46,136 nucleotides of DNA from an uncultured Bacilli bacterium (GTDB lineage: Bacteria; Bacillota_I; Bacilli_A; RF39; UBA660). Location of the stretch: the NCBI GenBank assembly GCA_947629375.1, contig CANRDN010000014.1, positions 1 to 46,136 on the forward strand, read 5' to 3'. Positions 16,681 to 22,823 of the stretch are shown piece by piece. The translations under genes were made by a program, and so were the position numbers. Within the stretch, counting starts at the first letter, position 1. Each line of letters begins with the position of its first letter. The notes beneath the pieces were generated by a model. That model did not search any database. It saw nothing but the letters and a program-made list of their open reading frames with translations, and was not told the DNA's origin.

Positions 16681-16706
16681 AAATGCACTTTGTAGTGCAT
16701 TTTTTT
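16679..16706. terminator. Bidirectional terminator
   Basis: AAATGCACT (16681-16689) pairs with AGTGCATTT (16694-16702) around a TTGT loop, with A and T runs on either side. It ends the Sm-like gene and the convergent coat gene, whose stop codon (16705-16707) lies in the T-run. Confidence 0.85.
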
Positions 16707-17088
16707 AAACATTGGCTACTAATACATCATCTAAACATTTAATTGATGATATATTATCCAAATTTATTGTGAAAAAGTTATCTGTTGTCGTGTAAGTATT
16801 GTTATCACCTGGAATTAATATTCTAAATGTTGCAGTATTTTCGTTGATACTTTCGATTCTAAATGCTGTAGATGTTCCAGTTGCTCCATTATAGGAATAA
16901 GGCATAGTCCATATTGTGTTAGTACAACAACTATATAAATTTATAGGTCTTGTATTAGCAGTTGTCGTAATATTTCCTAAAAAAGGCTTTTCACATCCAA
17001 GCATTGTTCCGTTTTCTTGTTGCTGTTGCAAAAACAAGATTTTTTCAAGTGTCTCTGCAAGACAATTTCCATTTCCATTATTACACAT
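16705..17088 (-). CDS. Spore coat protein, CotY/CotZ/ExsY family
   Basis: A 127-residue protein matching the CotY/CotZ crust and exosporium family. It has an N-terminal Cys with a short helix (CLAETLEKILFLQQ), a central FRIESINENTATFRIL like the FRVE...ATLSIL of CotY/CotZ, and a C-terminal INLDNISSIKCLDDVLV like the family's VDLGCFCAIQCL. It has several cysteines, fewer than the Bacillus proteins, and these usually crosslink the outer spore layer. It lies 17 bases downstream of a second family member, behind GGAAAGGAGG, so the two form an operon. The specific member cannot be assigned. Confidence 0.8.
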   Translation of the reverse strand: MCNNGNGNCLAETLEKILFLQQQQENGTMLGCEKPFLGNITTTANTRPINLYSCCTNTIWTMPYSYNGATGTSTAFRIESINENTATFRILIPGDNNTYTTTDNFFTINLDNISSIKCLDDVLVANV

Positions 17089-17105: not shown

Positions 17106-17486
17106 CTATAATGCTATAAGGGTATCAGCAAGACATCTTATTGCAGCGATACAATCTATATTTACAGTAGCAAATTGACCAGTTGATGTGAATGTTCCAT
17201 CTGTTCCTGCAGCAAGTAATCTAACAGTAACGCAAGAACTGTTTATTCCTTCAACTCTAAAAGTTGTCGAGTTTGCCGTTGCAGGATCTCCTCCTGTAGG
17301 GTACTGGATTGATAACTCTGTATTGTTACACAAATAAAATGTTACAGGTCTTGTGTTGAAATTATTATTTAAACCAAGCATTGGTCTAGTACAAGAATTA
17401 TTACCATCCAATCCATTTGTGGCCATCGTCTGTAAATTATATATTCCAGTTAAAATATCTAATAAATGGTTTCCATTATTGTTCAT
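17106..17486 (-). CDS. Spore coat protein, CotY/CotZ/ExsY family, second copy
   Basis: A 126-residue paralog of the next gene downstream. Shared features are the N-terminal helix (LLDILTGIYNLQ), a central TTFRVEGINSSCVTVRLL, and the C-terminal TVNIDCIAAIRCLADTLI, which matches the CotY/CotZ C-terminus. It is less Cys-rich than known crust proteins. AAGGAGTGA precedes the ATG on the minus strand, and it is the first gene of the pair. A mother-cell (SigE/SigK) promoter is expected, but I could not identify one with confidence in 17487-17590. Confidence 0.8.
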   Translation of the reverse strand: MNNNGNHLLDILTGIYNLQTMATNGLDGNNSCTRPMLGLNNNFNTRPVTFYLCNNTELSIQYPTGGDPATANSTTFRVEGINSSCVTVRLLAAGTDGTFTSTGQFATVNIDCIAAIRCLADTLIAL

Positions 17487-17596: not shown

Positions 17597-17602
17597 TATA
17601 AT
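17597..17602 (+). promoter_or_regulatory. -10 box before the EIIB-like gene
   Basis: TATAAT overlaps the in-frame ATG at 17601, which excludes that ATG as the start. Transcription would begin near 17609, at the GGTGAT ribosome site. Confidence 0.55.
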
Positions 17603-17618
17603 GAATATGGTGATAAAG

Positions 17619-17942
17619 ATGTGGGAATATGTAATAGTAGGAATAATAATACTAATTGTACTTTTAGCAGTATTAAAAGCTGGTAAAAAAGATGTACACT
17701 TAGAACTTAATAAATTAGTAGAATATTTAGGTGGAAAAGAAAACATTGTTGATTATGAAAGTAATTTATCGAGATTTAGAGTTACTCTAAAGGATGTTAC
17801 GAAAGCTAATAAAGAAGCAATAACAAAACTAGGAGCTAAAGGAATAGTAGAAATCGATAATGAACTTAAAATAATTCTAGGGCCTGAATCAAAACAATTA
17901 AAAAAATATATAAATAGTATTAAAGAAAAAAACAATTTATAA
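17619..17942 (+). CDS. Membrane-anchored degenerate PTS EIIB-like protein
   Basis: A 107-residue protein: one N-terminal membrane helix (about 4-24), then a domain resembling the glucose-family PTS EIIB fold. The conserved run LVEYLGGKENI, SRFRVTLKD, LGAKGIVEI and IILGPES follows the EIIB pattern closely. The phosphorylated Cys of the usual (D/N)xCxTRLR motif is replaced: the aligned stretch is ESNLSRFR, with Asn at the Cys position. It therefore cannot carry phosphate in the normal way and may be a binding or sensing module. The start is ATG 17619. The next gene is a sensor kinase with its own promoter 70 bases on. Confidence 0.75.
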   Translation: MWEYVIVGIIILIVLLAVLKAGKKDVHLELNKLVEYLGGKENIVDYESNLSRFRVTLKDVTKANKEAITKLGAKGIVEIDNELKIILGPESKQLKKYINSIKEKNNL

Positions 17943-17957
17943 CAGATTAAAACTTAT

Positions 17958-17974
17958 TTCGACAAAATTCGACA
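17958..17974 (+). promoter_or_regulatory. Two tandem Spo0A (0A) boxes
   Basis: TTCGACA occurs at 17958-17964 and again at 17968-17974, in the same orientation and 10 bases apart, one helical turn. Each is a perfect match to the 0A box (reverse complement of TGTCGAA). Tandem boxes at this spacing suit a Spo0A dimer. They end 12 bases before a TATAAT, covering the -35 region. Confidence 0.75.
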
Positions 17975-17985
17975 AAGTAGACTCA

Positions 17986-17991
17986 TATAAT
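17986..17991 (+). promoter_or_regulatory. -10 box of the sensor kinase gene
   Basis: TATAAT lies 22 bases before ATG 18014. The -35 region has no TTGACA match and is occupied by the Spo0A boxes, as in Spo0A-activated sigma-A promoters. Confidence 0.6.
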
Positions 17992-18013
17992 TAATCTTGA
18001 AAGAAGGTTAAGT

Positions 18014-19147
18014 ATGAGTTTTTTATTTGAATTATTTAAGAATTTAATAATAGTGTTATTTCCTTTAGTCCTTTTTAAGTCTTTAGATGGAATTATTGTA
18101 AGAAATGGTAATGTTTCAAGAGCAGTTATATTTTTATCTTTATTTATAGGGATTTTTACCTTTAGCAATGAATACTTTTTAATCTTTATTAATATTCCTT
18201 TGAGTGTATTAATTTTAAAGAAAGAAAAATGGTTATATACCTTATCCACAGTTATTGTGATTATTTATTTTTACTTGAATCATTTATATCTTTATATAAT
18301 AGAGTATCTAATAATACTTGGTCTATTCCTTTTAAATAAGATTACCATTAATATCTTTACAGCAGTAACCATCTATTTCTTTACTTTAAATATCTTTGCA
18401 TATCGAGTAAATATTTTTAACTATTTAAGTGTCATAATTTTCTACACTTTATCAATTATCTATATGGATAAAGTATATGTTGAAGACTTATCAAAAAAAC
18501 TCGAAGATATGTACTCTAGTTACTTATTTAAATTTATTCACGAAGTTAAAAATCCTTTGTCGGTGGTTTTGGGGTATCTGGAGATAATAAATAAAAAAGA
18601 TAATTGTGACTTAAATAAATATTTAATGATTATCGATAAGGAAGTAAATGAATCTTTAAATATAATTGAAGACTATTTAATGTATGGAAGATTTAATGTT
18701 AACTTTGACTATGTAGATATTAATCTTTTGTTGAAAGAAGTTACAAGTGACTATAAAAAGTTAGAAAAACTTTACGATATGAGACTTAACTTCTATTACG
18801 ATGAAGAAGAACATTTAATTCTTGGAGATTACTCTAAACTTAAGCAAGTAGTTATTAACATTATAAAAAATAGTATTGAATCTCATAGTGATAAAAGACT
18901 TGAAATAGATATCGACTATAAAATAGTTAACAATAATATAATTATTGATATAAATGATAACGGAGTAGGAATAAAAGATGAAAATTCACTTGGAAAAGAA
19001 TTTTATACTACTAAAGAGAATGGTCTAGGACTTGGAGTTAACTTTTCTAAAAATATAATCAAACTTCATAAAGGAGAAATTAAATATATTTCTAAAGAGG
19101 AAAAGGGAACAGATGTTAGAATTACGCTTCCTTTATTGAACATTTAG
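18014..19147 (+). CDS. Sensor histidine kinase, sporulation-kinase-like
   Basis: A 377-residue kinase with about five or six membrane helices in the first 150 residues and little extracellular sequence, a layout like KinB. The phosphorylated His is His176 in FIHEVKNPLSVVLGYLE. The ATPase domain shows the N box (VINIIKNSIESH), G1 box (DINDNGVGI), and a final GLGLGVNFSKNIIKLHKGE. No response regulator adjoins it, so it is an orphan, typical of kinases feeding a phosphorelay. The two 0A boxes at its promoter support a link to Spo0A. Start ATG 18014 follows AGAAGG. Confidence 0.85.
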   Translation: MSFLFELFKNLIIVLFPLVLFKSLDGIIVRNGNVSRAVIFLSLFIGIFTFSNEYFLIFINIPLSVLILKKEKWLYTLSTVIVIIYFYLNHLYLYIIEYLIILGLFLLNKITINIFTAVTIYFFTLNIFAYRVNIFNYLSVIIFYTLSIIYMDKVYVEDLSKKLEDMYSSYLFKFIHEVKNPLSVVLGYLEIINKKDNCDLNKYLMIIDKEVNESLNIIEDYLMYGRFNVNFDYVDINLLLKEVTSDYKKLEKLYDMRLNFYYDEEEHLILGDYSKLKQVVINIIKNSIESHSDKRLEIDIDYKIVNNNIIIDINDNGVGIKDENSLGKEFYTTKENGLGLGVNFSKNIIKLHKGEIKYISKEEKGTDVRITLPLLNI

Positions 19148-19231
19148 AAAGTGTAAAGAGTTTTTCTTTCGATTGTTATTTTTTCACATTTATCAAAAGA
19201 ATGATAAAATTAAACTAGAGGAGAGATGAGT

Positions 19232-19825
19232 ATGAAAAAAGATGAGAAGAAAAATAAAAATATCGAAAAAAGTAGAATAATGAATTTTAAAGACGTTGTG
19301 GTCTCTTTAAAGACAATAGCAGCGCTTATTATGGCAATTAGTATAATTACTACCGTTTGTGTTACTGTTTTATCAGTTCTTGCAACAGGTAGCATTTTGT
19401 CTAGTACTAAAGAAGAACTATTGGAAAATGAATCAACAGTTGAATACATTTCTAAAATTAATACTGATACAATATCTGAAGCCAGAGAATATATTTTAGA
19501 TATGAATGATTCAGGATTCTTTGCCTTCGATAAGGTAATTCTTCCTTCAATAATTGTAGTAGTAGCATTTATTTTATTAATTGTTTTGAGTAAAAAAATG
19601 CTTGATTTTCTTAAAGATGCTAAATCTAATAAGACTTTATTCACTACAGATAAACTTTATATTTTGAAGAATATTCGTTATATTTTCTTGGTTATAGGTT
19701 TACTTTTCATTTTAGGATTTAATTTTACATTCTTGATTTTCTTTTTAGTTTTAGAAATTTTACTTGAATTTATTCTTTATCTATTCAATTATTGTGTAAG
19801 TATAGAAAATAATAATGATGAATAG
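19232..19825 (+). CDS. Four-helix membrane protein, unknown family
   Basis: A 197-residue protein with a basic N-terminus (about 25 residues rich in Lys and Asn). It has four predicted membrane helices: about 31-56, 106-128, 148-166 and 167-186. An extracytoplasmic loop of about 45 acidic residues lies between the first two. The start is ATG 19232, since GAGGAG (19218-19223) lies 8 bases before it but only 2 bases before ATG 19226. It is followed by a strong terminator. I do not recognise a function. Confidence 0.65.
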   Translation: MKKDEKKNKNIEKSRIMNFKDVVVSLKTIAALIMAISIITTVCVTVLSVLATGSILSSTKEELLENESTVEYISKINTDTISEAREYILDMNDSGFFAFDKVILPSIIVVVAFILLIVLSKKMLDFLKDAKSNKTLFTTDKLYILKNIRYIFLVIGLLFILGFNFTFLIFFLVLEILLEFILYLFNYCVSIENNNDE

Positions 19826-20789: not shown

Positions 20790-20809
20790 ATTAACTTGAG
20801 GTGATTACT

Positions 20810-21478
20810 TTGAAACTTTTAGTAGTGGACGATGAAAAACTAATAAGAGATGTAATAAAAGAATATGCAGAAGCTGAAGGATATTCTGTAGTAGAAGCAA
20901 GCGACGGTAACGAAGCCATAACAGCAATAGAAAAAAATCCTGAAATTGATTTGATAATTATGGATATAATGATGCCTAAATTAGATGGTTATAGTACTTG
21001 TAAAGAAATATTCAAAATAAGGAAGTATCCAACTATTATGTTATCAGCAAGAAAAGAAGAGTACGACAAACTTTATGGCTTTGATCTTGGAATAGATGAC
21101 TATGTGACTAAACCTTTTAGCCCTAAAGAATTAATGGCAAGAGTTAAAGCTGTTCTTTTAAGAAACAATAGTATAAGTGATGATGTATATAAATACAAAG
21201 ACTTAGAAGTTAACTATAAAGCTCACTCTGTAAAAATAGAAGGAAAAGAAATAAAATTAACTCCTAAAGAATATGAATTATTAGTAAATTTCATCAAAAA
21301 TGAAGGAATTGCTCTATCTCGTGAACAACTATTATCTAGTGTCTGGGGATATGACTTCTTTGGAGATGATAGAACAGTAGATACACACATTAAAATGTTA
21401 AGAAATAGCCTAGGTAAATATAGAGATTTAATTGTAACTGTAAGATCTTTAGGATATAAATATGAAACGAATAAGTAA
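20810..21478 (+). CDS. OmpR/PhoB-family response regulator
   Basis: A 222-residue regulator. The receiver domain (about 1-118) has the acidic pair VDDE (7-9), phospho-acceptor Asp52 in LIIMDIMMPKLDGY, and Lys101 in DYVTKPFSP. The C-terminal winged helix (about 125-220) carries LTPKEYELL and the recognition-helix region DDRTVDTHIKMLRNSLG. The start is TTG 20810 behind GAGGTG, giving the standard MKLLVVDDE beginning; the GTG at 20801 overlaps the ribosome site. The kinase gene overlaps its last 17 bases. The target genes and signal cannot be told. Confidence 0.92.
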   Translation: MKLLVVDDEKLIRDVIKEYAEAEGYSVVEASDGNEAITAIEKNPEIDLIIMDIMMPKLDGYSTCKEIFKIRKYPTIMLSARKEEYDKLYGFDLGIDDYVTKPFSPKELMARVKAVLLRNNSISDDVYKYKDLEVNYKAHSVKIEGKEIKLTPKEYELLVNFIKNEGIALSREQLLSSVWGYDFFGDDRTVDTHIKMLRNSLGKYRDLIVTVRSLGYKYETNK

Positions 21479-22823
21479 TAGTATAAGTTTTAAAACATTA
21501 CGCTACTTTGTATTATTTTCAATAATAATACTGGTGGTGCTTTGGCTATTACAAGTAGTATCTCTTAATAAATTTTATGAACTTTCAGTAAAAAATGAAA
21601 TTAGTAATGTTGTAGAAAAAGTAAAAGAAAATTATAATAGTGATGATTATGAAGACTATCTAAATAGATTATCTTTCCAAAATAATATGTGTATAGAAAT
21701 ATATGATGGAGTAGCAATATCTTATTCTTCTATTGGTTGTTATAAAGAAGGGGCAAAACTTACAGATGAAAAAAGAGATTTTATCTTCAACAACACACAG
21801 GAAAAAGAATTTATTTTTGTCGATCAAAAAATGAAGAGTAATTACTTGATGGAAGGAATAAAACTAGAAAATGGTAAATTTGCTTTCGTTCAAGTAAGAC
21901 TAGAGCCTGTTGATTCAACAGTTAAAATATTAAAAGATCAGTTACTGGTAATTTCAATTTTCGTTTGTCTTCTATCTATTTTACTTGCAGTCTTCTTATC
22001 TCGAAGAATATCTAAACCAATAGAAAAAATGAATGCAAATGCCAAAAAGATTGCCAGTGGGGAATACGAAGTAGATTTTGAAGAAAACTCGACTGTTAAC
22101 GAAATAAATGAACTAAATAAAACATTAAATATAACAAGTAAAGAACTACAAAAAACAGAAAATCTAAGAAGAGAATTAATGTCTAATGTATCGCACGACT
22201 TGAAGACACCTCTTACGATGATTAAAGCATATGCTGAGATGATAAGAGATTTGACATATAAAGATAAAAAGAAAATGAAAGAAAACTTAAATGTCATAAT
22301 AGAGGAATCAGATAGATTAAATCTTTTAGTAAACGATATATTAGAATTATCGAGATATCAATCAAACACTATAAAACTAGAATATGATGATTTTGATATA
22401 AATGAACTAATTTTGGAAATATTAAATAGATTTAAAATATATGAAGAACAAGATGGTTTCAAAATAACATATAAAAAATCAAAAAAATGTATAGTACACG
22501 CTGATAGAAAAAGAATAGAACAAGTATTATATAATTTACTTAATAATGCTATAAATTATTCTAATGAAGATAAAAAAATAGAAATAAAATTAATAGAAGA
22601 AGAAAATGTAAAAATCGAAATATCTAATTCTTGTGACAAATTATCCGATGAAGAATTAAATTTAATTTGGGATAAATATTATAAAGTAGATAAGACATAT
22701 TCGAGAGTGCAACTAGGAACAGGAATTGGATTATCAATTGTTAAAAACATTTTAGAACTTCATAACAGCAATTATGGAGTAAAACAAGACGATAAAAAAA
22801 TAACATTTTACTTTGACATTTAA
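21462..22823 (+). CDS. Sensor histidine kinase paired with the OmpR-type regulator
   Basis: A 453-residue kinase. Membrane helices at about 14-33 and 160-179 enclose an extracellular sensor domain of about 125 residues. A HAMP linker follows (ISKPIEKMNANAKKIASG). His245 lies in SNVSHDLKTPLTMIKAY. The ATPase domain shows LLNNAINYS and GTGIGLSIVKNILELHNS. It resembles PhoR/ResE-type kinases. The start ATG 21462 overlaps the regulator gene, so the pair is translationally coupled. It is followed by a terminator at 22831. Confidence 0.9.
   Translation: MKRISNSISFKTLRYFVLFSIIILVVLWLLQVVSLNKFYELSVKNEISNVVEKVKENYNSDDYEDYLNRLSFQNNMCIEIYDGVAISYSSIGCYKEGAKLTDEKRDFIFNNTQEKEFIFVDQKMKSNYLMEGIKLENGKFAFVQVRLEPVDSTVKILKDQLLVISIFVCLLSILLAVFLSRRISKPIEKMNANAKKIASGEYEVDFEENSTVNEINELNKTLNITSKELQKTENLRRELMSNVSHDLKTPLTMIKAYAEMIRDLTYKDKKKMKENLNVIIEESDRLNLLVNDILELSRYQSNTIKLEYDDFDINELILEILNRFKIYEEQDGFKITYKKSKKCIVHADRKRIEQVLYNLLNNAINYSNEDKKIEIKLIEEENVKIEISNSCDKLSDEELNLIWDKYYKVDKTYSRVQLGTGIGLSIVKNILELHNSNYGVKQDDKKITFYFDI

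Follow-up and report, generated by a model that had tools for sequence, protein, structure and literature searches.

In Bacillus subtilis, Spo0A~P raises the level of the kinases KinA and KinB, which in turn feed Spo0A (PMC3269414). This loop takes an indirect path. Spo0A~P inhibits AbrB, whereupon kinA is upregulated via sigma-H and kinB is de-repressed (PMC3269414), and kinB is also under the control of SinR, which is antagonised by Spo0A-induced SinI (PMC5733473). A further loop is the autoregulation of Spo0A: 0A boxes are located upstream of spo0A and the Spo0A proteins of B. subtilis and C. difficile bind to their own promoters (PMC12090719, PMC3485338). While B. subtilis uses the Spo0F phosphorelay, clostridial orphan kinases such as Cac0323, Cac0903 and Cac3319 act on Spo0A without Spo0F (PMC6136694, PMC8102284, PMC7098912). 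The parts available of PMC11210211, PMC8102284, PMC7098912, PMC9871927 and PMC2530871 make no mention of 0A boxes at the genes for such orphan kinases. Likewise, we found no report of 0A boxes in the promoter of a sporulation kinase in the open-access texts on Spo0A, 0A boxes, sporulation kinases and feedback, as far as these were accessible.

Here, we analyzed a stretch of 46,136 nucleotides from an uncultured Bacilli bacterium (the window), which differs from B. subtilis in that 0A boxes are found within a kinase promoter itself. The original prediction had described two perfect TTCGACA boxes, 10 bases apart and in the same orientation, ahead of a TATAAT sequence and a kinase gene, and the coordinates confirm this description. 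Box 1 (17958..17964) and box 2 (17968..17974) both lie on the plus strand, with a start-to-start distance of 10 bases and a gap of 3 bases, and each is a perfect copy of TTCGACA, the reverse complement of the Spo0A core motif TGTCGAA (PMC3485338). The -10 element TATAAT (17986..17991, plus strand) follows 11 bases past box 2 and 22 bases past the TTCGAC of box 1. There is no TTGACA-like -35 element at the usual 17-base spacing from TATAAT, where CAAAAT is found instead. If a start site is assumed, the boxes span roughly -40 to -24 of the promoter. Further downstream, AGAAGG (18002..18007, plus strand), read from the sequence as a likely ribosome-binding site, precedes the ATG at 18014 of a gene encoding a sensor histidine kinase of 377 amino acids (18014..19147, plus strand).

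This arrangement resembles Spo0A-activated sigma-A promoters of the spoIIG type, in which boxes cover the -35 region and a good -10 element is present, while a -35 element at normal spacing is missing. In B. subtilis, the -10 element of spoIIG is reportedly preceded at 22 bases by a -35-like element, similar to the position of box 1 relative to TATAAT in the window. The kinase promoter differs from the spoIIG type in that its boxes are perfect, whereas spoIIGA in the genomes studied here has degenerate boxes only. We propose that the two boxes form a Spo0A operator within the kinase promoter. Bound to these tandem boxes as a dimer, Spo0A~P would stand in for the -35 element and recruit sigma-A RNA polymerase to TATAAT, and rising Spo0A~P would thereby turn the kinase gene on.

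Single TTCGACA motifs are common in the window, with nine copies against 2.42 expected, a number that was reached in none of 100 shuffles. Pairs with three mismatches allowed occur at chance rate (3 found, 2.87 expected), and we therefore rejected this pair count as evidence. With no excess of such pairs in the window, it is the perfect pair that carries the argument. Both the abundance of single motifs and the chance rate of the degenerate pairs are compatible with the idea that short, AT-rich boxes resemble 0A boxes by accident. A scan of the genome for the rarity of the boxes, already called for with the original prediction, revealed no second perfect pair. In the genome to which the window belongs (G000; 1,866,978 bases or 1.87 Mb, 95.6% complete), TTCGACA-N3-TTCGACA is found without mismatch once, at the kinase promoter, with one mismatch once, at the promoter of comK (PF06338), and with two mismatches 15 times. 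When read backwards, the same pattern gave nine matches with up to two mismatches and none with up to one. Ten of the 15 two-mismatch sites fall within open reading frames of at least 40 amino acids and five outside (L007, L008, L012, L014, L018); two of these five directly precede spoIVB and spo0A. At another of them (L007:1501-1517), the pair is placed some 90 bases ahead of an opposite-strand gene whose product, judged by eye, is signal-peptidase-like (Pfam S24 below cut-off). The gene that follows, again judged by eye, encodes a lookalike of a TasA/CotN-type secreted protein.

Conservation decides against an accidental resemblance. Among 12 genomes of the genus, eight (G000 included) encode the kinase or a close relative, two gave only distant matches and two none. 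The seven other kinases share 46-54% identity with the window kinase. One of the eight loci (L026 in G010) is cut at a contig end before the promoter, leaving seven usable promoters. In all seven, TTCGACA precedes the start codon, and a second, more or less degenerate box is found 10 bases on. This second box is perfect in G000 and G001 and reads TAAGACA in G004, AACGACA in G011, TTAGACA in G009, AGTGACA in G006 and TAAAACA in G003, so that six of the seven fit nnnGACA. The G003 promoter has an extra ATCGACA 10 bases before its TTCGACA box. Box 1 is invariant in the alignment of the seven promoters, as are the nine bases TTCGACAAA that start with it.

Beyond the genus, the kinase (E up to 1e-30) is present in 89 of 145 family genomes from 144 genera and absent from the other 56. 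Promoters were read at 28 loci outside the genus, chosen as the best-scoring of the 89 kinase genomes, so that more distant kinases are not represented. The best upstream pair has no mismatch in ten of these loci, one in six, two in eight and three in four. Pairs with up to two mismatches were thus found at 24 of 28 loci. By comparison, 2 of 2800 dinucleotide shuffles of these upstream windows reached this level, and none of 498 other windows taken from the loci did. Replacing the gap of 3 by gaps of 0, 1, 2, 4, 5 or 6 recovered only one locus with up to two mismatches. Five more loci from uncultured Bacilli of rabbit, goat and deer (L054-L058) all have pairs, with no mismatch in L054, one in L056 and L058, two in L055 and three in L057. 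Left out of the box reading were L053 and L059, which are cut before the promoter, and L060-L068, which hold distant kinases from other phyla or classes. Shuffles, other windows and other spacings led us to reject chance, and with position, spacing and orientation kept within the genus and across 28 others, its probability is negligible.

The distance between the boxes and the -10 element is conserved as well. Across 35 promoters (7 from the genus, 28 from the family), a TATAAT-like hexamer with up to one mismatch follows the pair at exactly +11 in 23 cases and at exactly +21 in nine, together 32 of 35. In the three remaining promoters the hexamer is located elsewhere, first at 16, 22 or 29. 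For G006, the pair chosen by the script in this count lies one period upstream of the pair in the genus alignment. The +21 promoters have space for one further box period, often occupied by a degenerate box, which leads to the general rule (0A box)n-N11-TATAAT. An activator that contacts polymerase needs a fixed register, and the observed positions at +11 and +21 fit such a contact. Spo0A control at a sigma-A-type promoter, as originally proposed, is thus supported by the fixed distance to the -10 element together with the conservation inside the genus and beyond it (28 further genera).

Boxes in this position could also serve repression. Placed at roughly -40 to -24 (start site assumed), they lie where a repressor could act, and Spo0A is known to repress some genes, for example the C. 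difficile sin locus (PMC7643835). Bound Spo0A would then block polymerase at -35, and the boxes would act as a brake or pulse shaper and not as an amplifier. However, the promoter lacks a -35 element that could be blocked and should be weak without an activator. Furthermore, a repressor does not need a register of the kind that is kept in 32 of 35 promoters. We regard repression as quite improbable, and activation of the kinase gene by Spo0A as likely from the layout of the promoter.

Absence of spo0A from the genome would have spoken against the original prediction; G000 encodes one Spo0A (Spo0A_C match, E 2.4e-41). The protein aligns without gaps to the solved DNA-binding domain of Spo0A (1lq1) and is identical through SRVERAIRHAIEV. 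The recognition helix, which reads the DNA, is like that of Bacillus and unchanged. Within the family, the core RVERAIRHAIE is found in 28 of 29 Spo0A loci and RVERAIRHAVE in one; 29 of the 30 loci returned were taken in, with L155 left out. The spo0A promoter itself has a box in all ten genus genomes that have spo0A (perfect in nine, ATCGACA in one), followed 10 bases on by NTTTACA. In the family, a perfect single box lies within 160 bases upstream of spo0A in 24 of 29 loci, and a pair with up to two mismatches in five of 29. Boxes upstream of spo0A are hence a feature shared with B. subtilis and C. difficile, while the loop in the window differs from Spo0A autoregulation in running through the kinase gene.

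These data also bear on the question whether the boxes belong to Spo0A at all. Another DNA-binding protein that favours 10-base direct repeats, such as a different response regulator, might use them, and two genomes of the genus that gave no Spo0A match indeed keep their comK boxes. Against this stand the identity of the motif with the Spo0A core (PMC3485338), the box in front of spo0A in genus and family and the unchanged recognition helix, and we consider a different binder very unlikely. From the motif and the protein, Spo0A is predicted to bind the boxes. The two genomes in question, G005 and G007 (96 and 94% complete), gave no Spo0A_C match and no close kinase; spoIIGA is present in both, as is comK with its boxes (loci L071, L076, L103, L107). 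The gene tpiA, which adjoins spo0A in G000, was not found in G005 and G007 either. The joint absence of two neighboring genes fits an assembly gap, and the missing spo0A may possibly reflect such a gap or a recent loss.

The same promoter module is found at comK. We identified comK in 12 of 12 genus genomes (loci L003, L069-L080), and its promoters mostly have two or three 0A-like boxes in register with the -10 element. With a lax test that allows up to two hexamer mismatches, 11 of 12 promoters place a -10-like hexamer at +11 or +21 past the pair. The best pair of G006, with five mismatches, is off the true register and was left out of the 11. In B. subtilis, Spo0A~P binds to the comK promoter (PMC3297582). 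By contrast to the kinase promoter, nothing more than a degenerate GACA element is found in the spoIIGA promoters of the genus (10 of 12 were read, two partial matches being left out). A degenerate box before spoIIAA-spoIIE-spoIIGA is bound with low affinity by C. difficile Spo0A (PMC7643835). SpoIIE gave no match above the cut-off in any of the 12 genus genomes, and its promoter could therefore not be used as a further Spo0A target. From the presence of spoIIGA without a clear spoIIE we infer that the host is a member of the order RF39 (compare PMC10868615 section 21). Because the boxes at spo0A, comK and spoIIGA match known Spo0A targets in other organisms, the target set in these genomes resembles, and from its promoters looks like, a Spo0A regulon. 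The comK boxes suggest that competence is perhaps under Spo0A control in uncultured gut Bacilli. In a further genus genome (L045; G009:C67:4273-4289), a one-mismatch pair was seen 77 bases before a short open reading frame on the other strand, which by eye is STAS-like and encodes a putative SpoIIAA. Taken together, the boxes, their conservation, the -10 register, a spo0A with unchanged helix, the same module at comK and related boxes at spo0A make direct Spo0A control of the kinase gene a well-supported reading, close to the most that a sequence by itself can give.

In the kinase, membrane helices are predicted up to about residue 155, followed by a HisKA domain (residues 176-226) and a HATPase_c domain (residues 271-374). 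A fold model built from 11 sequences (mean pLDDT 80.6, pTM 0.48), which served for the helix count only, shows seven helices ahead of the catalytic part, the last of them long (residues 3-25, 32-49, 53-69, 72-88, 92-106, 112-129 and 134-194). KinB likewise has a multi-helix membrane N-terminus without PAS domain, followed by HisKA and HATPase, and the window kinase shares this architecture, a feature that is common to many kinases. The Pfam scan found no PAS family in the window kinase; PAS domains are frequent but not universal in such kinases, and KinB and KinD are both listed without one (PMC6136694 Table 1). The description of the kinase as KinB-like can therefore be kept for the several predicted membrane helices and the missing PAS domain. 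It is a loose likeness, with no KinB model among the matches listed (25 of 63 for NCBIfam). Downstream of the kinase, in the place that kapB takes in KinB systems, the open reading frame 19226-19825 has no Pfam or NCBIfam match.

The designation as an orphan kinase was correct. No response regulator gene adjoins the kinase gene, and the nearest one (20801-21478) overlaps its own kinase gene (21462-22823). G000 has nine receiver domains, all in open frames of 217-620 amino acids, and none of these nine is a single-domain, Spo0F-like receiver (genome 95.6% complete). In contrast to B. subtilis with its Spo0F phosphorelay, no Spo0F candidate was thus seen in G000. Since no frame is short enough for Spo0F, direct phosphorylation is the simpler reading in a genome of this completeness. 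The orphan membrane kinase would then most likely phosphorylate Spo0A directly, without Spo0F, like the clostridial orphan kinases.

While controlled by Spo0A, the kinase could mainly be a Spo0A~P phosphatase or serve another regulator, which would render the feedback negative or absent. In C. difficile, certain orphan kinases counteract sporulation. In addition, several response regulators of G000 have no kinase motif beside them in a regex search (L175, L179, L180), and other partners are therefore possible. On the other side, every sporulation kinase that has been verified by experiment is an orphan (PMC6136694 section 7), and the window kinase is an orphan under Spo0A boxes. We hold a phosphatase or a kinase for another regulator to be rather unlikely, and infer phosphotransfer from the kinase to Spo0A.

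Directly upstream of the kinase gene, an EIIB-like protein of 113 amino acids with a hydrophobic N-terminus is encoded (17601..17942, plus strand), the stop codon of which lies 15 bases before box 1. In this protein the EIIB cysteine is replaced by asparagine. In a regex scan of 47 kinase loci, some of which are duplicates, 29 have such an EIIB-like protein close to the kinase, often as its upstream neighbor. In these 29 proteins the phosphocysteine position is occupied by Asn (22), Glu (5) or Thr (2). With the phosphocysteine replaced, the EIIB-like protein should not carry phosphate at this position, and it may partner the kinase in sensing. The DNA immediately ahead of the EIIB-like and kinase genes encodes two similar small proteins on the minus strand (16705-17088 and 17106-17486), of which the latter matches Spore-coat_CotZ (PF10612, E 5e-9).

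To probe a partnership, we compared the distribution of the kinase with that of Spo0A across the 145 family genomes. A Spo0A match is present in 85 of 89 genomes with the kinase versus 49 of 56 without it (Fisher p 0.107). A p value of 0.0017 was obtained only when 16 weak Spo0A matches were reclassified post hoc as absent, with a threshold chosen after the table had been seen. The association of the kinase with Spo0A across the family is weak. Four family genomes (79-88% complete) have the kinase without a Spo0A match, and within the genus the kinase is missing from G002 and G008, both of which have Spo0A. Given this weak association, the 56 genomes without the kinase and the two genus members with Spo0A only, the loop appears common, and it is not required for having Spo0A. 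Weak or short Spo0A_C matches in the family (e.g., G046, G067, G069, G092, G135) may be decaying spo0A genes in lineages that are losing sporulation.

The proposed mechanism would amount to direct positive feedback as cells enter sporulation. We consider the whole account, in which Spo0A~P activates the kinase promoter and the kinase feeds Spo0A, to be probable. It shares with the B. subtilis loop that Spo0A~P raises the kinase by which it is fed, and is probably a more direct version of the loop known from Bacillus. Modelling indicates that an instantaneous loop is more sensitive to the kinase level than a delayed one (PMC3269414), and a direct loop should behave unlike the delayed loop of B. 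subtilis. According to one survey, Erysipelotrichales, which it takes as the baseline for related uncultured orders, lack the sporulation sensor kinase of Bacillus (PMC10868615 section 21). As a tentative extension, to which we give somewhat less than even chances, this kinase family might be the missing sporulation sensor of many uncultured gut Bacilli that have Spo0A and lack a sporulation kinase of the Bacillus type. A hard-coded promoter module, (0A box)n-N11-TATAAT, would wire it to Spo0A and drive comK as well. Spo0A~P might thereby directly turn on its own kinase and competence, and the EIIB-like protein without catalytic cysteine could be a sugar-state partner. With the promoter module as a search motif, Spo0A regulons may also be traced in the genomes of uncultured bacteria. 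For uncultured, reduced gut Bacilli, knowledge of sporulation control comes largely from lists of genes, and the DNA analyzed here points to a candidate kinase and its putative control by Spo0A.
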